DNA of 64,000 bases. Source: Clostridia bacterium (GTDB lineage: Bacteria > Bacillota > Clostridia > Christensenellales > Aristaeellaceae). Where the stretch lies: positions 1-64,000 of the forward strand of contig JAFXBE010000025.1 in NCBI GenBank assembly GCA_017516765.1, given 5' to 3'. Within the stretch, counting starts at the first letter, position 1, and every line of letters begins with the position of its first letter. Below are positions 4,744 through 31,588 of this stretch, piece by piece. A program made the translations under genes and the position numbers. The notes beneath the pieces were generated by a model. That model was given only the letters and a program-made list of their open reading frames with translations, was not told the DNA's origin and searched no databases.

Positions 4744-5394
4744 TCAGGGAATCAGGTTCAGCATATCCTCCGTATCAGTTACGTCGACGAAGCTGTCCGG
4801 AACCTGCCCAATGATGATGCTTTCGGCAATGGGAACCGTGCTTACGACAGATACCATTCTTGAATCCGCCGGTATGATCAGGCTGACAGATGTCTGCAGC
4901 GTCAAAAAAATCTTATGCCTTGTCTGGTTGATGCCGGCTGCTTCAAATTCTGTTTCATAATGTGTGCTTACAGCTCCCACGGGAACGATCTGCACATCGA
5001 TCCTTGGTCCGAAACCACCAAGAAACCGAAGCCCCAACGCAGCGCCGAGCGGAATGCCGACCACCTGATTTTCGATGCTGTTGAGCTTTTCCTGTGCGAT
5101 AATCGCTGTTTCGGTGGCAAGCTGATTCATACGCATGGTATTGGCCCGCATCATTGCCACTCTGCCCTGGGCATCCATGTGCACCTGCATCAACTCTTCG
5201 TATTCAACCCCCTCCCCTACGACCTGCTGTGCAGCTTTGTTGACAGTTTCCAGTGCAATGGAATGCGCCCTGGCGTACGCCATATCCAGAAGCGTCCTGC
5301 TCAGGTTCCGCTCCAGAACCAGAAACAGAGCGCATATCAACAATCCCGTAAAGACAATTTTTCTGATCACACTGCCCTTGATTCTTTTCCTCAT
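4744..5394 (-). CDS. yunB: Sporulation protein YunB
   Basis: A protein of about 216 aa with one N-terminal membrane anchor (about residues 12-30) and an extracytoplasmic remainder. The ALETVNKAAQQVV segment, the 'G.IPLGAALGLRFLGGFGPRIDVQIVPVG' region and the C-terminal VPIAESIIIGQVPDSF ending match YunB, a SigE-regulated forespore-related protein in Bacillus. I place the start at ATG 5394, because AAGGGAG lies 8 bases before it; the GTG at 5400 would be only 2 bases away. Its presence implies a spore-forming lineage. A CATATAT element at 5418-5424 resembles a SigE or SigK -10 box but lies very close to the start. Confidence 0.85.
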   Translation of the reverse strand: MRKRIKGSVIRKIVFTGLLICALFLVLERNLSRTLLDMAYARAHSIALETVNKAAQQVVGEGVEYEELMQVHMDAQGRVAMMRANTMRMNQLATETAIIAQEKLNSIENQVVGIPLGAALGLRFLGGFGPRIDVQIVPVGAVSTHYETEFEAAGINQTRHKIFLTLQTSVSLIIPADSRMVSVVSTVPIAESIIIGQVPDSFVDVTDTEDMLNLIP

Positions 5395-5507
5395 AACCAC
5401 AACTCCCTTCCAAGGGAATATATGTCCCGACCGGAGCCGCTTTTCCGGATAAGAAAGAAAGCAATTCTTTGTTACACGGTAGTATGGCGCAGAGGCGCAC
5501 TCTATGA

Positions 5508-5513
5508 TATAAT
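5508..5513 (+). promoter_or_regulatory. -10 element upstream of penicillin-binding protein
   Basis: A perfect TATAAT within an AT-rich stretch 60 bases before the TTG start. No convincing -35 is seen at 16-18 bases. A small hairpin (TCCGG/CCGGA, 5530-5549) follows in the leader. The rest of 5401-5574 holds no gene. Confidence 0.45.
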
Positions 5514-5574
5514 ATGATTTGTGTTTTTATGTCCGGTTTTTACCGGATATCCTCAGTAACAGGAGGAATTTGCA

Positions 5575-8331
5575 TTGTATCAGAACGACCGGCCATCCGG
5601 CTATCAACAGCCTTGGTATAGCGAAGAGCAGGAATATGCCGAAGCTCCGGAGGATGCGCAGGAATATGCTCCGGTAAAGCGACGCACCATATTCCGCCCC
5701 CGTCTGTCCAAACCCAACTTTATCGTTTCCACGCTGATCTGCACGATTCGTGTAATCGCCCTCTGCATCGTTCTTGGCGGTCTTGCGCTGGCAGGCGTTG
5801 TGTTCGGCATCGCAAAGGGATACATGGAAACCGCGCCCACGCTGAATCTTGCATTGCTGAGTGATCAGGACAAGACTTCCTTCCTTTATGATTCGCAGGG
5901 CAATGTGATCACCGATTACAAGGGCACCGAGAACCGCGTCATGGTCAACATTTCCATGATGCCTCAGAACCTGTGCAACGCTTTTGTCGCTGTTGAGGAC
6001 GCCCGTTTTTATACCCATAACGGCATCGACCTGAAGCGTATTGTGGGTTCGTTTATCAGTAACTTTGTTTCCGGTACCAATCAGGGCGGTTCCACCATTA
6101 CCCAGCAGCTGATCAAGAACACGGTGCTTTCCAACGAGCAAAGCTACAAGCGGAAGATTCAGGAGGCCTATCTGGCCATGCAGCTGGAAACCTGCTATAC
6201 CAAAGCGCAGATCCTTGAATGCTACCTGAACACCATTTACCTCGGCGAAAACTATTACGGCGTAGAAGTGGCTGCACAGGGATATTTCGGCAAATCCCTT
6301 TCCCAGCTTACCCTGCGCGAATGCGCCATGCTCGCAGGCATGACCAACAGCCCGTATTATTACAATCCACGCCGCAACTTCTATACCCGTACATCCGAAA
6401 CAACGGATTATAAAAAGATCACAAACGACCGTACCGACTATGTACTCCGCTGCATGTACGAAAACGAGTTCATCACGCAAGCGCAGTATCAGGAAGCGTT
6501 GAATCCCGAAACGGCGCACGTGCTGCAGACTTCCACCACGGAAGGCGAGGGCATGTACAAATATGCTCATTATGTGGAATATGCCGTAAGCGATATTGTG
6601 GATTGCTTCCTTGAAATGCGCGATCTGGAGAATACCAGCGAGAACCGCTACAAAATGGAAAACGAGCTGCGTACCGGCGGCTACCACGTAACGCTTGCCA
6701 TCGACACCGAGATCCAGACCATTCTGGAAGATACGCTGGCGAACTGGAAGAAGTATCCCTCCCTGCGCGACCCCAGCGACAAGATCTACCGTGCCAGAAG
6801 TGCGGACGGCATGTATCAGGAGATCATCCAGCCGCAGGTGGCTGCTGTGGTTATGGATTACCGTACCGGTGAGATCAAGGCCATGTGCGGCAGCCGAACG
6901 GCTCCCACACAACGCAAAACGCTGAACCGTGCCACCGATATGCGTATGCCCGTAGGTTCTTCCATCAAACCCATCGCCGTATACGCACCTGCCATCGAGC
7001 TTGGCGCTTCCCCTGCAAGCATCGTTTACAACATGCCCTTGCCTATCAAAGGCTGGACAGGCTCCGATGGCAAAGACAGCTGGCCCCGCAACTACGGCGG
7101 TGGCGGTTATGTCGGGCCGCAGACCTTCCGGCAGGCAATGAAGCGAAGCCACAACGTATCTGCCGCACAGGCCCTGATGAACTACGTGGGCGTTGAAACG
7201 TCGGCAGAATACCTTGTTCGGATGGGCGTTGACCGGAAAAACATCGATGCCACTCCCTTCGGTCTGTCGCTGGGTTCCAGCGGCATTACCCCTCTGCAGG
7301 AAGCCGTAGCTTTCGGTACACTTGCCAATGGTGGTGTATACCAGAAGCCTATCTCCTTCCTCGGCATTTCGGACAGCAACGGACACGTGGTTTACGACAG
7401 CCATGCGCAGCAGCAGCGTACGCAGGTTTTCCGCCCCTCCACCGCTTGGCTCATCGTAGATATGATGAAAGACGTCGTTTCCGGCGGTACCGCCACCAAC
7501 GCCAAAATCAGCGGTCAAACGGTGGCAGGCAAGACCGGCACCAACTCCGACTCCCGCGGCGTAACATTCTGCGGTCTGACCGGTTGGTACGTCTCCTCTA
7601 TCTGGATCGGTCACGACAACTACAAGCCACTTTCTTCCAAAGCTACCGGCGGTAACGCCGCAACTCCCCTCTGGCAGAGCTACATGAGCCAGATTCACAA
7701 AGCAAAAGGGTTGGAAAACAGAAACATCATCGAAGCCGACCCTTCCGAGCTTGGTCTTGTAAAGGTGACTACCTGCGCTGTAAGCGGACAGCTTGCCACC
7801 AGCTCCTGCCGCAACGATACCATGGGCTACGGTGTTGTGAGCGATTACTGGTACGAGCCGACGGTTCCCACCGTATACTGCCAGATGCATCAATCTGTAC
7901 AGGTATGCGCCGATACCTCCATGCTGCCCAGCGACAACTGCAAACGGCTTGTAACCAAAGGTATCGTGGTCATTCCCAACGGACATCCCCTGAGCGCATT
8001 TGTCAACGACAAAGAATACGGCCCTGTACTGACCGAATATCTCGGTATCGGAAGCGCCTACGGGATCTGTGCCTATCACCAGGGCGGCATTCCGCAGGGC
8101 GGCTACCAGAACAGCGACCCGACCGTTCAAAACGTGCTGATCCCCGACGCACGGCAGCTGATCGACAATGCCTACGATCTGATGGGTACGCTGGATTCCT
8201 CTTCTGCGCTGTATGCCAATGTACAGGCAGCGATCAACAATCTGCAGGTGGTTATCAGCAATCCTTCCGCTTCCACCTCGGATGTCGCCGCAGCCATGGC
8301 GCAGCTTACGCAGGCGATGACAGGCTATTGA
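5575..8331 (+). CDS. Class A penicillin-binding protein (transglycosylase/transpeptidase)
   Basis: A 918-aa bifunctional peptidoglycan synthase. It has a short basic cytoplasmic tail and one membrane helix (about residues 48-80). The GT51 glycosyltransferase domain contains EDARFYTHNG (catalytic Glu about 141) and GGSTITQQ. The transpeptidase domain has SSIK (Ser 462, Lys 465), SHN (525-527) and KTGT (653-656). About 200 C-terminal residues follow, including paired cysteines and an Ala/Ser-rich helical end. Start is TTG at 5575, with AGGAGG at 5562-5567. The wall polymer acylation genes begin 50 bases downstream, suggesting a cell-envelope operon. All catalytic motifs are intact. Confidence 0.93.
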   Translation: MYQNDRPSGYQQPWYSEEQEYAEAPEDAQEYAPVKRRTIFRPRLSKPNFIVSTLICTIRVIALCIVLGGLALAGVVFGIAKGYMETAPTLNLALLSDQDKTSFLYDSQGNVITDYKGTENRVMVNISMMPQNLCNAFVAVEDARFYTHNGIDLKRIVGSFISNFVSGTNQGGSTITQQLIKNTVLSNEQSYKRKIQEAYLAMQLETCYTKAQILECYLNTIYLGENYYGVEVAAQGYFGKSLSQLTLRECAMLAGMTNSPYYYNPRRNFYTRTSETTDYKKITNDRTDYVLRCMYENEFITQAQYQEALNPETAHVLQTSTTEGEGMYKYAHYVEYAVSDIVDCFLEMRDLENTSENRYKMENELRTGGYHVTLAIDTEIQTILEDTLANWKKYPSLRDPSDKIYRARSADGMYQEIIQPQVAAVVMDYRTGEIKAMCGSRTAPTQRKTLNRATDMRMPVGSSIKPIAVYAPAIELGASPASIVYNMPLPIKGWTGSDGKDSWPRNYGGGGYVGPQTFRQAMKRSHNVSAAQALMNYVGVETSAEYLVRMGVDRKNIDATPFGLSLGSSGITPLQEAVAFGTLANGGVYQKPISFLGISDSNGHVVYDSHAQQQRTQVFRPSTAWLIVDMMKDVVSGGTATNAKISGQTVAGKTGTNSDSRGVTFCGLTGWYVSSIWIGHDNYKPLSSKATGGNAATPLWQSYMSQIHKAKGLENRNIIEADPSELGLVKVTTCAVSGQLATSSCRNDTMGYGVVSDYWYEPTVPTVYCQMHQSVQVCADTSMLPSDNCKRLVTKGIVVIPNGHPLSAFVNDKEYGPVLTEYLGIGSAYGICAYHQGGIPQGGYQNSDPTVQNVLIPDARQLIDNAYDLMGTLDSSSALYANVQAAINNLQVVISNPSASTSDVAAAMAQLTQAMTGY

Positions 8332-26446: not shown

Positions 26447-27154
26447 ATGCGACTACAAAAGTATCTGGCTTCCTGCGGTGTCGCCTCAAGGCGCGCATCC
26501 GAAAAAATGATCGCCGAAGGCCGTGTAAGCGTAGACGGCACAGTGATTACCGAAATGGGAACCAAAGTGGAGGACGGACAGATCGTTTGTGTGGATGGTA
26601 AGCCCGTCACCCCCGAAGCACAGAAATATTATGTGATGTACCACAAACCCGCCGGTGAAGTTACCACCGTGCAGGATCCGGAAGGACGCGCCACCGTTCT
26701 GGACCGGTTCCGGGATTTTCCCGCCAGACTGTATCCTGTGGGACGCCTCGACTATGACAGCGAAGGTCTTCTGCTGCTGACCAACGATGGCGACCTGACC
26801 GAGCATATGCTCCACCCGTCCAGAGAAGTGGACAAAGTATATCTGGCACGAGTCAGCAACGTTGTTACCCCCGATGAAGCAAAACGCCTGGAGAGGGGTG
26901 TAATGGTGGACGGGCGGCTCACATCCCGCGCCAAGGCAAAGATCCTCAGCACACAGAACCTATATACCGATATGCTTATTACCATTCACGAAGGACGAAA
27001 CCGTCAGGTACGAAAAATGGTGGAGCAGATCGGTCACCAGGTGGTAATGCTTCGCCGCATCCGTTTCGGGCCTCTGAAGCTGGGCGATCTGCCCCGTGGC
27101 ATGTGGCGCCCCCTGACAGACGAGGAACTGGCGCTGCTTAAAGACCTTTTCTGA
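26447..27154 (+). CDS. Ribosomal large-subunit pseudouridine synthase, RsuA/RluB family
   Basis: A 235-aa RNA-modifying enzyme. An N-terminal S4 domain (MRLQKYLASCGVASRRASEK) leads into the catalytic domain with GRLDYDSEGLLLLTNDG (catalytic Asp) and EGRNRQVRKM. RluB-type enzymes modify 23S rRNA near position 2605. The RluB/RluE/RsuA subtype cannot be settled here. The start has GAGGA (26438-26442) just upstream. Confidence 0.92.
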   Translation: MRLQKYLASCGVASRRASEKMIAEGRVSVDGTVITEMGTKVEDGQIVCVDGKPVTPEAQKYYVMYHKPAGEVTTVQDPEGRATVLDRFRDFPARLYPVGRLDYDSEGLLLLTNDGDLTEHMLHPSREVDKVYLARVSNVVTPDEAKRLERGVMVDGRLTSRAKAKILSTQNLYTDMLITIHEGRNRQVRKMVEQIGHQVVMLRRIRFGPLKLGDLPRGMWRPLTDEELALLKDLF

Positions 27155-27196: not shown

Positions 27197-27754
27197 ATGG
27201 CAAAAAACGGCGGTTTTCTCGAATCTATCCTGAGCAGCCTTTTCGGCGGCGGTTCGTCCGGCAGCAGTTCGTCCGATGATCTTTCCGAGGTTCTCGGCGA
27301 TCTGGTAGAAAACCTTGGCGGAGATGGCAACGACAGTCCTCTGGACGGTCTGATGGATACGCTGGGCGACACCGTGTCAGACCTGACCGGCATTGGTGCA
27401 GTAAACACCGAAGCCTCCGAAACCGCAAGGATCAAGACCATCGAAAAATCCTCCACCTCTGCCAAGAAGGTGCGCAAGCCCGCCAAGGGTCGCAAACCCG
27501 GCTCCAGCATCAAGGAAAAGGCCGAAGATGCCAAGGAGAGCGCAAAGGAAAAGACCTCCGGATCATCCGTAAAGGAGAAGGCTGCATCCGCTAAAGAATG
27601 CGCCAGAGAAAAGGCGGCCGGCAAGCCTTCTGTTTTCGGCAGAACTTCTGCCTCCGGCAAGGCTGCAAGAACTTCTGCCTCGTCTGTGAAGGCCAAGGCA
27701 ATGGCAGCCCGTGCCCGTGCCAAGGAGAATGCTTCCGGAAAGAGCGGCAAATAA
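27197..27754 (+). CDS. Lys/Ala/Ser-rich low-complexity protein
   Basis: A 185-aa protein of unknown function. Residues 1-70 are acidic and Gly/Ser-rich (SSLFGGGSSG, repeated LGDLVENLGG-type helices). From about residue 85 the sequence is strongly basic, with repeated (S/A)xKEKAxxAKE units recalling LEA proteins or histone H1 tails. ATG 27197 is preferred to 27191, because AGGAGG at 27182-27187 is 9 rather than 3 bases away. One base separates its stop from the next start, so it belongs with the GrpE-like and Hsp70-like genes. It may bind nucleic acid or act as a disordered client or adaptor; this is inference. Confidence 0.6.
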   Translation: MAKNGGFLESILSSLFGGGSSGSSSSDDLSEVLGDLVENLGGDGNDSPLDGLMDTLGDTVSDLTGIGAVNTEASETARIKTIEKSSTSAKKVRKPAKGRKPGSSIKEKAEDAKESAKEKTSGSSVKEKAASAKECAREKAAGKPSVFGRTSASGKAARTSASSVKAKAMAARARAKENASGKSGK

Positions 27755-27755
27755 T

Positions 27756-28601
27756 ATGACTGCACTTGAAAACTGGCAGGAGCAGCGCCCCGAGTTGATC
27801 CGTGAACTGAAAAACCAGCAGGAGATCGGCGATATCATTTATTCGGTAAGACATGCGATCCTGCAAACCGAACAGAATACGCTTGCCGTACAAACGGATG
27901 ATATTCTTCGCCAACAGCTTGGCATTCTCTTTGGTTTGCTCAAAGGCAGCATGAGCCTGCTGAACATTCCTGCTGCCGCAACCACATGGGCACCCATCGC
28001 ACACAAGAAGAAACTGCGTCCCGGCTTTCCTTTCTTGATGGCAGCCGCATGCATTCTGACCGCTGCCGGCATTTGGATGTATGCCAAAGGCGATCTGCTT
28101 GGATGGCTTCTCCCCCTTTCTACGCTGGTTCTTGGTTTGATCGGTCTGCTGCTGAACAGCCGGGCCCGCCAAAAGGAAGAAGCCGGGCAGGCTGCCAATC
28201 TCCGCACCACCTATTCGATTGATACAGAGCAACTGCTTGGCGCAATTGAAGCCCAAATCGTAATGATCGACCGGTGTGCTGCCGATTTTGCCTACCTGAA
28301 TCAATCGATCCGCCAACCCACCGGGAGCCGAGGCTGGCAGAATCTTGAAGCCGTATCTGAGCTGCTGGAAACCATCTATGCTTACGACGACGATCTGCGC
28401 ACACAGGCTGACGATGCCATCCGGCAGCTTCTGATCGAGATGGGGCTGGAGGCAGTTGATTTCGAACCCGCAAACGAAAATCTGTTTACGCAACTCCCCT
28501 CCAAAAGCATGACGCGGACTCTCTGCCCCGCTCTGTTATCTACAGAGGATCACCACCTGCTCAAAAGGGGCACAGCCGTAGTGTGCACCAAAGCTGCTTA
28601 A
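27756..28601 (+). CDS. Membrane protein with GrpE-like C-terminal part
   Basis: A 281-aa protein. A helical N-terminus is followed by two membrane helices (about residues 95-113 and 116-136). The rest is a long helical region and a C-terminal domain. That last part, with LLIEMGLEAVDFEP, NENLFTQLP, RTLCPALLS and LLKRGTAVV, resembles the helix and beta-wing of GrpE, the nucleotide exchange factor for Hsp70. The next gene encodes an Hsp70-like ATPase 11 bases downstream, which supports the idea. No exact family is recognised; the GrpE reading is inferred from pattern and context. Confidence 0.5.
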   Translation: MTALENWQEQRPELIRELKNQQEIGDIIYSVRHAILQTEQNTLAVQTDDILRQQLGILFGLLKGSMSLLNIPAAATTWAPIAHKKKLRPGFPFLMAAACILTAAGIWMYAKGDLLGWLLPLSTLVLGLIGLLLNSRARQKEEAGQAANLRTTYSIDTEQLLGAIEAQIVMIDRCAADFAYLNQSIRQPTGSRGWQNLEAVSELLETIYAYDDDLRTQADDAIRQLLIEMGLEAVDFEPANENLFTQLPSKSMTRTLCPALLSTEDHHLLKRGTAVVCTKAA

Positions 28602-28612
28602 AGGAGTACTCC

Positions 28613-30499
28613 ATGCGATATATTGGTTTTGATATCGGCGACGGCGAAAGCGCTGTCGCCGCTTTTGAACAAGGCTCCGGTATCGAGCCCATCATACTCC
28701 CCGTAGCCGGAAACCACAGCATCCTTAGTGCAGTCGGCAAGATCGGCGGCGAAGTCGTCATCGGCGAAAGGGCCTATACCGACGAGCTGGCAGATGGTTT
28801 GAGCGTACGCTTCAAGAGCCGCTTTACATACGATACAGCTGTAAACGCCGATATCATCAACTTTGTCGCCGGTGTGGTCAAAGAACTGGAACAAAGCAAT
28901 CTGCTGCGGGAGGACGATCAATTTGTGGTCGGCTGTCCTGCTGGTTGGAATACAGCAACCCGTCTGCGCTACGCAGAGCTGATGCAGAAAGCCGGCATCC
29001 GGAATCCCCAGATCATTTCGGAATCCCGTGCGGCCTTTCTCTATGCCAAATATGCCAAGACCGTTGCTCTTGATATTGATATCCTCAACGAAAGCGCACT
29101 CGTGATCGATATCGGTTCCTCAACGCTGGATTTTGCCTATATTGTGGACGGGCGCGAAACCGGTGTTGGTACCTTTGGCGAAGTAGATCTGGGCGGCGGC
29201 ATTCTGGATGCAGAGCTTCTTCGGCGCGCTACCGAACAAAGCCGCGACCGGACATCACTGGAGAGAGTGTTTGCCGAGAGCAAGAGCTGGTACAGCTACT
29301 GCGAACTGGAAGCACGGCGCATCAAAGAAAACTACTACAGCCGTCTTTCCAAGGATGCAACCGCAAACGTAAAGAAACAGATCCGCGTCTGCTATGACGG
29401 CGTACAGAAATTGATGCTTCACCTCAACGAGGCAGAAGCAAATCTGATCACCCAGAAGCCTCTTGTTTCGTTGGGTGGACGCAGTTTCGTTCAGGCCATA
29501 CGGGACGCTTTGAAGAACGCAGCCCATTTGACTGCCGAACGACCGCCCAGGCTTCTGCTCCTGACAGGCGGCGCTTCCCGCATGCCCTTCTTCCGGGAAA
29601 CCTGCAAGGAGATCTTCCCAAACGCCATTACAGTATGCTGTCCAGAGCCTGAGTTTTCCATCGCAAAAGGTTTGGCATACGCCGGCTGGATCGATGAGAA
29701 CCTTCGCGCATTCCGCAAAGCCATCAACGAAGAGATCACCGATGCACGGATCAATGTGGTGGTACGGCAGTCTCTGCCCGACCTTATGCCAAGCGTTATC
29801 GATGCGCTCGTGGATCTGCTGATGGACGAGACCATCCTGCCGGTGTACCGTAATTGGCAGCGTGGGCATCTGCTTACGCTGAACGATATGAACCGCAGCA
29901 TGCAGAAGCGGATGAGCGATGTGCTTACCTCTCCCATAACAGAAAAGGCGCTGGAACCGTCTATCCGGCACTGGCTGACCATTCTCACCCCTACCCTGCA
30001 GAACATGATCGATCCCATCTGCGACCGTTACGAGGTTCCCAGAAGAGAAATGCAGCTGAATCTGACCCCCGGCGGTAACAATCAGGTTGCATTTTCTGCA
30101 CGCGATATGCTCAACTTCAATTTCATCGGCACCATTCTCGGATTGATCGTCAGTGTCATCGTCGGGCTATTGTGTGGCGGCGGCGGTCTGGCTTTGATTG
30201 CTTCCGGTCCCCTTGGGTTTATTGCCGGCGTTGTCATTGGCGCAATCATCAGCCTGTTCGGCTGGAACGCCCTTTCCGAAAAGCTGATGGATGCCAATCT
30301 GCCGCAGCTCCTGCGTCGTATGAACAGCGAAAAGCGTCTCAACAGCGATACCACGAAACAAAAGCTGCGGGACGCGATCACGAAGGAGCTGTACGGCGAG
30401 AACAGCACGTTTGTCAAGGAGCTGATCAAAGGATTCTCGGCTTCCTTCCGCAAATATCTGCAAGAGATCGCACAGGCAGCAGAGATTCCGATCGAATAA
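28613..30499 (+). CDS. Membrane-associated Hsp70/actin-fold ATPase
   Basis: A 628-aa protein whose N-terminal 370 residues have the Hsp70 nucleotide-binding plan: phosphate-1 loop GFDIGDGESAV (residue 5 on), phosphate-2 VIDIGSSTLDFAYI (near 170) and the adenosine motif LLTGGASRMPF (near 320). No canonical peptide-binding domain follows. Instead there is a helical region, then two close hydrophobic Gly-rich segments at about 505-550 (GLIVSVIVGLL and IAGVVIGAIISLF), and a basic helical tail. ATG 28613 has AAGGAG upstream. With the membrane GrpE-like gene just before, it may form a membrane-bound chaperone-like machine. Function unknown. Confidence 0.7.
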   Translation: MRYIGFDIGDGESAVAAFEQGSGIEPIILPVAGNHSILSAVGKIGGEVVIGERAYTDELADGLSVRFKSRFTYDTAVNADIINFVAGVVKELEQSNLLREDDQFVVGCPAGWNTATRLRYAELMQKAGIRNPQIISESRAAFLYAKYAKTVALDIDILNESALVIDIGSSTLDFAYIVDGRETGVGTFGEVDLGGGILDAELLRRATEQSRDRTSLERVFAESKSWYSYCELEARRIKENYYSRLSKDATANVKKQIRVCYDGVQKLMLHLNEAEANLITQKPLVSLGGRSFVQAIRDALKNAAHLTAERPPRLLLLTGGASRMPFFRETCKEIFPNAITVCCPEPEFSIAKGLAYAGWIDENLRAFRKAINEEITDARINVVVRQSLPDLMPSVIDALVDLLMDETILPVYRNWQRGHLLTLNDMNRSMQKRMSDVLTSPITEKALEPSIRHWLTILTPTLQNMIDPICDRYEVPRREMQLNLTPGGNNQVAFSARDMLNFNFIGTILGLIVSVIVGLLCGGGGLALIASGPLGFIAGVVIGAIISLFGWNALSEKLMDANLPQLLRRMNSEKRLNSDTTKQKLRDAITKELYGENSTFVKELIKGFSASFRKYLQEIAQAAEIPIE

Positions 30500-30556: not shown

Positions 30557-31588
30557 ATGAAGCGTGTTTTGTATCTGCTGGTCGCGCTGTCGTTGCTCTG
30601 CGCTTGTGCACCCGCATCTGCCGAGCGGTATACCGCCTCCTTTTTCGATGTATTCGATACTGCATCCCAGATTGTTATTTACACGGATGATCAGCAGGAG
30701 GCCAACCGTATCGCGCAAACGGTTCACGATGAGCTGCTGTACTACCACCAATTGTTTGACCAGTACAATGATACGCCCGGTGTAAACGGCGTATACACCC
30801 TAAACCTGCAGGCCGCAAAAAAGCCTGTCACTGTGGACGAACCCCTGTTCCGGCTGCTCTGGCTCGGCAAAGAAATGCATACCAAAACCGGCGGGAAAGT
30901 AAATATCACCATGGGCAGCGTACTGTCTCTGTGGCACGATGCCCGTGAGCAGGGGCTGCACGATCCGCAAAGCGCGTCCCTTCCCGATATCGCTGCCCTG
31001 AAAGAAGCCGCCCGTCACATCGATCCCTCTGATCTGATTCTCGATCCGGAAAATCAAACAGTTTTCTTTGCCGACCCCGAATTAAGGCTGGATCTTGGTG
31101 CGGTCGCCAAAGGGTATGCCGTGGAACAGGTGGCAGATCTGCTGGAGGCAGAAGGACACACCGGTATTGTACTATCCATTGGGGGAAATGTCAGAACCAT
31201 CGGCTGCCGTCCGGACGGCACGATTTTCTCCATTGGTATTCAAAACCCGGATCTGAACTCCGACATCCAGCACATTGCAGTCGCTGCGCTCAAGGATGCC
31301 TCCCTGGTGACCAGCGGTAGTTATCAACGTTACTACACAGTCGATGGCAAACAATACAACCACATCATTGATCCGGAAACCCTGATGCCAGCCGAACACA
31401 CCTGGTCGGTGTCCGTTATCACCCAGGACAGCGGTCTGGCAGATGCGCTCTCGACCGCGCTTTTTACCATGACTCCGGACGCAGGTATGGCATTTCTGGA
31501 GAATTACCCAGGCACAGAGGCACTGTGGGTTCTGCACGACGGTTCCCTCCTCTGCAGCGAAGGTTTGGAAGCTTTCCTTGTCAAGTAG
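30557..31588 (+). CDS. apbE: FAD:protein FMN transferase (ApbE family)
   Basis: A 343-aa lipoprotein-like enzyme. The leader ends in LLCACAPASA, with a possible lipid-accepting Cys near 15-17. It covalently attaches FMN to a Thr of target proteins such as Rnf or Nqr subunits, outside the membrane. Family motifs seen are FDTASQI, LDLGAVAKGYAVEQ, GIVLSIGGNVRTIG, TSGSYQRYY and HIIDPETLMPA (metal site). No Rnf or Nqr genes are in the window, so its target lies elsewhere. Confidence 0.92.
   Translation: MKRVLYLLVALSLLCACAPASAERYTASFFDVFDTASQIVIYTDDQQEANRIAQTVHDELLYYHQLFDQYNDTPGVNGVYTLNLQAAKKPVTVDEPLFRLLWLGKEMHTKTGGKVNITMGSVLSLWHDAREQGLHDPQSASLPDIAALKEAARHIDPSDLILDPENQTVFFADPELRLDLGAVAKGYAVEQVADLLEAEGHTGIVLSIGGNVRTIGCRPDGTIFSIGIQNPDLNSDIQHIAVAALKDASLVTSGSYQRYYTVDGKQYNHIIDPETLMPAEHTWSVSVITQDSGLADALSTALFTMTPDAGMAFLENYPGTEALWVLHDGSLLCSEGLEAFLVK

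Follow-up and report, generated by a model that had tools for sequence, protein, structure and literature searches.

A conserved gene pair for an Hsp70-type ATPase without a peptide-binding domain and a membrane protein with a likely GrpE-like domain in Clostridia

GrpE is the usual reset factor of the Hsp70 chaperone and its natural partner. The Escherichia coli Hsp70 HscC works with the tail-anchored proteins DjlB and DjlC and is thought to act at the membrane, according to the relevant passages of PMC8215388. In the GAP1-N2 GTPase conflict systems, found partly in Firmicutes, the corresponding passages of PMC7159879 place an Hsp70 lacking the peptide-binding domain within GrpE-containing neighborhoods. 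Here, we describe a locus in a 64,000-nucleotide stretch (the window) of the genome of a Clostridia bacterium of the family Aristaeellaceae (GCA_017516765.1, contig JAFXBE010000025.1), in which three adjacent genes encode the proteins P1, P2 and P3. P3 joins an Hsp70-type ATPase head to a helical domain with a hydrophobic hairpin, and P2 is a membrane protein whose C-terminal domain is likely, from its predicted structure, to have a GrpE-like fold. No description of the P2-P3 pair was found in searches of open-licence PubMed Central papers, and the passages searched in PMC6104087, PMC12645912 and PMC12987570 contain nothing on it.

The ATPase head and helical domain of P3

The pair comprises the following features.

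27756-28601, + strand: P2, 281 amino acids; helical N-terminal domain, transmembrane hairpin (residues ~90-132) and C-terminal domain (residues ~148-281) with a GrpE-like predicted fold
28182-28598, + strand: candidate GrpE-like C-terminal domain of P2, residues ~143-281, defined from alignments and model and carrying the conserved motif F-x-x-LPS...T-x-x-PA...LL-[RK]-RG
28613-30499, + strand: P3, 628 amino acids; Hsp70-type ATPase domain, helical domain, Gly-rich hydrophobic hairpin and C-terminal helices
28613-29680, + strand: Hsp70-type nucleotide-binding domain of P3, residues ~1-356 (aligned by hhalign with DnaK over 2-346; PF00012 match to residue 355)
30116-30265, + strand: hydrophobic, Gly-rich hairpin in P3, residues ~502-551, which we interpret as anchoring P3 in the membrane or inserting into it

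The first ~350 residues of P3 form a genuine Hsp70 nucleotide-binding domain, and its catalytic residues are intact. The Pfam family PF00012 matches residues 83-355 (E 5.4e-12, 45.2 bits against a cut-off of 20.6), which places P3 within the Hsp70 family model, and hhalign matches a profile built from 64 P3 homologues to eight DnaKs over P3 residues 2-346 (probability 98.6, E 1.1e-15). In this alignment, residues D7, K68, E137, D166 and T171 of P3 fall on ATPase positions of DnaK, the last four on what we take to be K70, E171, D194 and T199; they are conserved in 64, 63, 64, 63 and 63 of the 64 homologues, respectively. The predicted structure of P3 superimposes on DnaK chains with a best Z of 23.3 (root-mean-square deviation, rmsd, 4.4; 315 residues aligned), and the best Foldseek E is 2.4e-13. 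The start of P3 is set at the ATG at 28613, the same ATG used by 12 aligned orthologues; the open reading frame (ORF) as called by program begins at an upstream GTG at 28583.

The peptide-binding domain of canonical Hsp70, a beta sandwich with its lid, is absent from P3. This follows from the end of the PF00012 match at residue 355, equivalent to profile position 369 of 599, and from a remainder (residues 360-628) that is modeled as helical and carries hydrophobic segments; no Pfam family scores above its cut-off beyond residue ~355. Its place is taken by a helical region that closes with a Gly-rich, presumably membrane-bound hairpin, the two segments of which span residues 504-522 and 528-546 (Kyte-Doolittle means of 2.53 and 2.25 over a 19-residue window). 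Two hydrophobic segments occupy the place of the hairpin in 60 of the 64 homologues. A profile search of the C-terminal domain against PDB sequences, run with no control, gave the colicin A pore domain as its best match at an E of 0.022, which is not significant, followed by apolipoproteins; these matches are taken as helix composition.

The original prediction, made from the DNA sequence alone, had described three tightly spaced genes encoding a Lys/Ala-rich protein, a two-helix membrane protein, and an Hsp70-fold ATPase with two hydrophobic Gly-rich segments and no peptide-binding domain. All of these features are borne out: the three ORFs lie on the + strand, contain no internal stops, and are separated by 1 base pair (P1-P2) and 11 base pairs (P2-P3).

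Linkage and spread of the gene pair

P2 and P3 are a conserved gene pair. Linkage was scored in 66 extracted loci with 67 P3-type genes, a duplicate locus (L048, the same as L011) and a DnaK (in L051) having been dropped; two remote P3 relatives (L148 and L149) were kept among the 67, and the loci outside the genus of the window were chosen from P3-positive genomes for diversity rather than at random. In 56 of the 67 cases P2 is the gene immediately before P3, 55 of them by a scripted rule and the other, L150, with a P3 ORF that is called overlong. For seven more P3 genes P2 is present in the locus but stands apart. It is separated from P3 by ~0.8 to 2.5 kilobases (kb) in L053, L161, L162 and L185 and by 8.4 kb in L054, it lies downstream of P3 in L166, and in L171 the P3 gene concerned is a second one in tandem. 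Since P3 is found in all 16 other genomes of the genus and P2 adjoins it as a rule, the original observation is confirmed as real and not a product of chance.

Several loci show further arrangements. The gap in L161 holds an ORF (5199-5870) that by eye resembles ankyrin repeats, and those in L053, L162 and L185 are about one gene long. Two P3-type genes stand in tandem behind a single P2 in L171 (6337-10258). A gene resembling a Ser/Thr protein kinase with a zinc-ribbon start, again by eye, lies beside or near P3 in L054 (7564-10785) and L170 (6803-10024), and the remote P3 relative of L149 is flanked by a kinase-like ORF and an FtsK/VirB4-like ORF.

P3 was found in 118 of 308 genomes of the family, in 12 of 396 genomes drawn from the order, all 12 of them within the family, and in two of a draw of 299 across the phylum, including the genome of the window itself. 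It is present in every named genome of two further genera (g16, 28 genomes; g89, 29 genomes), with the proviso that not all genomes lacking P3 are named. The pair seems to be core in three genera and patchy elsewhere. A copy is carried by a plasmid of Calothrix brevissima NIES-22, where the two genes occur in the same order and are annotated as hypothetical (3e-146 for P3, 3e-17 for P2). The P2 frame on this plasmid (L240, 8009-8991) is interrupted ahead of the conserved C-terminal motif, although the motif can be read in a different frame; either the gene is damaged or the sequence contains an error.

Within the family, SpoIVA was detected in 147 of the 308 genomes, though it may have been missed in incomplete ones: 79 genomes have both SpoIVA and P3, 39 have P3 alone, 68 have SpoIVA alone, and 122 have neither. 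The two are associated (odds ratio 3.6, Fisher p 1e-7, uncorrected for kinship). A role of P3 restricted to sporulation was considered and rejected, because SpoIVA is not matched in 39 of the 118 genomes with P3, including the well-assembled genomes G029 and G554 (each 97% complete).

The membrane partner P2 and the possible action of the pair

The hydrophobic segments of P2 span residues 90-108 and 114-132 (means of 1.76 and 2.18 on the scale and window used for P3). Among 60 P2 homologues a strict rule finds two segments in 38 and one in 22, and a looser rule finds at least two in 56. Because Lys/Arg-rich flanks lie on either side of the hydrophobic segments, the sequence suggests that both ends of P2 are cytoplasmic. 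Alignments of 13 rows (A1) and 60 rows were used for P2, which gave no Pfam family over its cut-off and no NCBIfam or PADLOC match at all.

The likeness of the C-terminal domain to GrpE comes chiefly from the predicted structure. When Foldseek candidates were realigned structurally to obtain Z and rmsd, residues 148-281 of P2 matched the GrpE chains 1dkg_A (Z 6.8, rmsd 6.3, 131 aligned), 4ani_A (6.8, 4.6, 127), 8gb3_E (6.5, 4.5, 124), 9bls_B (6.0, 5.9, 125) and 9blt_B (5.8, 6.1, 129), all at middling values below the Z of 8 under which the alignment tool's own note calls matches of helical models unremarkable. A sixth GrpE entry, 9a81_A, was excluded from this count at an rmsd of 24.6. Unrelated structures reach equal Z over residues 1-190; we give weight to the GrpE matches because they all belong to a single family, extend over the entire C-terminal domain, and represent the natural partner of an Hsp70. 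A GrpE-like fold is likely for this domain. The sequence weakly supports the same assignment. A 60-sequence profile of the P2 C-terminal domain scores 21.4 by hhalign against a GrpE profile, built from 44 loci with duplicates removed, compared with 14.2 for the reversed profile and a maximum of 18.5 among 60 shuffles (mean 11.8, standard deviation 2.1), and three local modes agree with this result.

Besides the middling Z values, a number of observations weigh against this assignment and against the pairing of an Hsp70 head with a GrpE-like partner. The GrpE family PF01025 does not match P2, and its matches in the genome of the window at E up to 10 include an ordinary GrpE on contig 107 and none on contig 33, which holds the window. 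Foldseek returns no match to the P2 model at E < 1, and the model itself is of moderate confidence (pLDDT 75.9, pTM 0.43). Two global hhalign modes score P2 against GrpE no better than controls, smaller P2 sets of 5 to 22 sequences stay within or near controls, and the scoring core is one short segment at ~219-235, opposite a helix and the first strand of GrpE. The P3 model has a mean pLDDT of 70.3, with the first 70 residues and the hairpin poorly modeled. Finally, P2 was not detected within the stretch read for four of the 67 P3 genes (L148, L149, L157 and L170). In L148, one of the two most distant loci, a different membrane protein, P0004, lies directly upstream of the P3 relative and has no similarity to P2 detectable by hhalign. 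PDB sequences searched with a P2 profile yielded nothing useful (best E 0.14).

The interpretation in the original prediction is thus partly supported. Its proposal of a GrpE-like C-terminal pattern in P2 holds for the predicted fold and, weakly, for the sequence, but not for the Pfam GrpE model. Its view of the locus as a membrane version of the DnaK system remains an inference, given that P3 has lost the peptide-binding domain and that the two flanking genes are RluB- and ApbE-like and do not encode J-domain proteins. Like DnaK and GrpE (PF00012, PF01025), P3 has the DnaK catalytic residues, the C-terminal domain of P2 is predicted to be GrpE-like, and the genes are adjacent. Unlike them, P3 has no peptide-binding domain, both proteins have hydrophobic hairpins, P2 falls outside the GrpE family model, and an ordinary GrpE and DnaK are encoded elsewhere in the same genome.

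We favor, with a probability of roughly 60%, the reading that P3 is an ATPase of the Hsp70/actin superfamily tethered to the membrane and P2 its dedicated membrane partner, whose cytoplasmic, GrpE-like C-terminal domain most likely serves as an exchange factor or docking subunit on the P3 ATPase domain. The description of the pair as a membrane-bound Hsp70 devoid of a substrate-binding domain, with a GrpE-like partner, is likely but not proven. The binding of P2 to P3, the exchange activity, the direction of force and the output would fit together as follows. ATP would close the P3 head and hydrolysis would alter it; P2 might then open the head and free ADP. The resulting movement would pass directly to the helical domain and hairpin of P3 instead of to a peptide clamp, and the output could be a different state of assembly or of insertion in the membrane, or a membrane client could be recruited. 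In the loci that have it, P1 would serve as an accessory polybasic adaptor. A bolder proposal, which we put forward tentatively and consider rather doubtful, is that the pair represents a novel type of machine at the membrane: an Hsp70-type ATPase cycle, with a membrane-anchored GrpE-like subunit to reset it, would drive an inserted hairpin and not a peptide clamp, as a remodeling or gating motor.

If the favored reading is true, the Hsp70-GrpE exchange cycle extends beyond soluble folding, the head and exchange factor having moved together to the membrane without the clamp. The pair would then be a compact system in which to ask what an Hsp70 head drives besides peptide binding, and a testable role would be available for a gene pair of more than 100 genomes in one gut Clostridia family and of a cyanobacterial plasmid.

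Among the alternatives, an actin-like scaffold survives best, although we consider it unlikely. P3 would form membrane-bound polymers by way of its ATPase heads, in the manner of MreB or FtsA, P2 would merely anchor or cap the polymer, and the likeness to Hsp70 would reflect a shared fold. P3 indeed resembles these proteins in superfamily fold, membrane association and lack of a peptide-binding domain, and hence of a chaperone clamp; the MreB chain 4czj_B is among the Foldseek matches of its model, and PF06723 (MreB_Mbl) matches at 1.6e-4, with weaker matches to FtsA and ParM. The MreB_Mbl score of 21.1 bits, however, falls below the cut-off of 27, whereas P3 exceeds the Hsp70 cut-off and matches the DnaK profile strongly, and it has a long helical extension and a partner that, by its predicted fold, resembles GrpE and not a filament partner.

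That P3 is a specialized holdase, with a helical domain that binds membrane-protein clients directly and a place comparable to that of HscC, is improbable. The combination of an Hsp70-type head with a hydrophobic hairpin would suit such a chaperone, and a membrane-located Hsp70 has a precedent in HscC with DjlB and DjlC. As far as the passages on it show, however, HscC keeps its peptide-binding domain and reaches the membrane through J proteins, whereas P3 lacks a substrate-binding domain and itself carries a hairpin, and its partner is GrpE-like. No VLLL-type interdomain linker was seen in P3 by eye, and no J-domain gene lies directly beside the pair, the flanks being RluB- and ApbE-like, in a comparison that did not extend to J proteins genome-wide.

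Least probable is a membrane-active effector of a defense or conflict system, with a Gly-rich hairpin that inserts or forms pores under the gate of the ATPase: the LeoBC match of the P3 C-terminal domain, the colicin A match, the plasmid-borne copy in Calothrix and the GAP1-N2 systems, which in the passages concerned hold Hsp70 and GrpE and in a subset a second Hsp70 without a peptide-binding domain, speak for it, but the LeoBC match is an artefact, every locus examined in the genus of the window occupies one chromosomal site after rluB, P3 is constant across that genus, and it is absent from phage records and from the viral contigs of one scan. The GAP1-N2 systems, moreover, as far as those passages go, combine a GTPase with an ordinary Hsp70 and GrpE, none of which lies directly beside P2-P3, where the partner is a membrane protein. 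To the extent that the passages show, neither in them nor in HscC does clamp loss go together with an ATPase that has a membrane hairpin and a GrpE-like partner that is membrane-bound.

Descent of the P3 tail from dynamin-like LeoBC was rejected as a composition artefact. At E up to 1, PADLOC gave LeoBC alone for P3 (E 3.9e-5), and no other defense model for P1, P2 or P3. LeoBC also matches four of five P3-type relatives, two of them at < 1e-5, and, with E allowed up to 1, 32 of 53 C-terminal domains of P3 proteins, the lowest E being 5.9e-7. Two of three reversed C-terminal segments match as well (L148 at 2e-5 and L167 at 0.0092, that of the window not at all), and masking of the hairpin abolishes the match in all three forward segments at E up to 10. 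P3 aligns weakly by hhalign with 23 Clostridial dynamin-like proteins (best group 33.4, reversed 24.3, group shuffle maximum 18.2, over 14 columns). What is kept is an analogy with LeoABC and bacterial dynamin-like proteins, which in the relevant part of PMC4159319 have an NTPase head, a helical stalk and a Gly-rich hydrophobic tip, but a head that is a GTPase and not an Hsp70.

P1 and the surroundings of the pair

The remaining features of the locus are as follows.

26447-27154, + strand: RluB-type pseudouridine synthase, 5' neighbor, not part of the system
27197-27754, + strand: P1, 185 amino acids, translated ORF; acidic Gly/Ser-rich N-terminal half and basic Lys/Ala-rich tail, optional member
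30557-31588: ApbE-like gene, 3' neighbor of P3

P1 is rich in Lys, Ala and Ser, has no hydrophobic segment, and carries a net charge of -11 in residues 1-85 and +19 in residues 86-185. It was surveyed in 20 loci of the genus and a near relative (21 less the duplicate L048). All 20 of these genus-type loci have rluB upstream of P2-P3, and a P1-like ORF lies between rluB and P2 in all but seven (L010, L012, L045, L046, L047, L172 and L183). Of the triplet for which the original prediction proposed a search in other Clostridia, the linkage of P2 and P3 is conserved, and P1 as a fixed part is not supported; we treat P1 as an optional basic adaptor. By eye, most P1-like ORFs begin acidic, have the stretch DLTGIGA-N-EAS in common and carry a tail rich in Lys. 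The tail of P1 resembles the Lys/Ala repeats of histone H1-like proteins, also by eye, and varies strongly between species, with the middle stretch kept.

The P2-P3 pair is situated between two housekeeping clusters. The genes 3' of P3 resemble rplU, prp and rpmA by eye in several members of the genus (L007, L008, L011 and L045-L047), and the ApbE-like gene takes this position in the window. The genome of the window comprises 3.01 Mb in 121 contigs. Its ordinary chaperone genes are DnaK-type on contigs 107 and 66 and GrpE on contig 107; the DnaK gene on contig 107 adjoins that for GrpE, and the one on contig 66 (12586-14271) is a second full-length DnaK-type gene.

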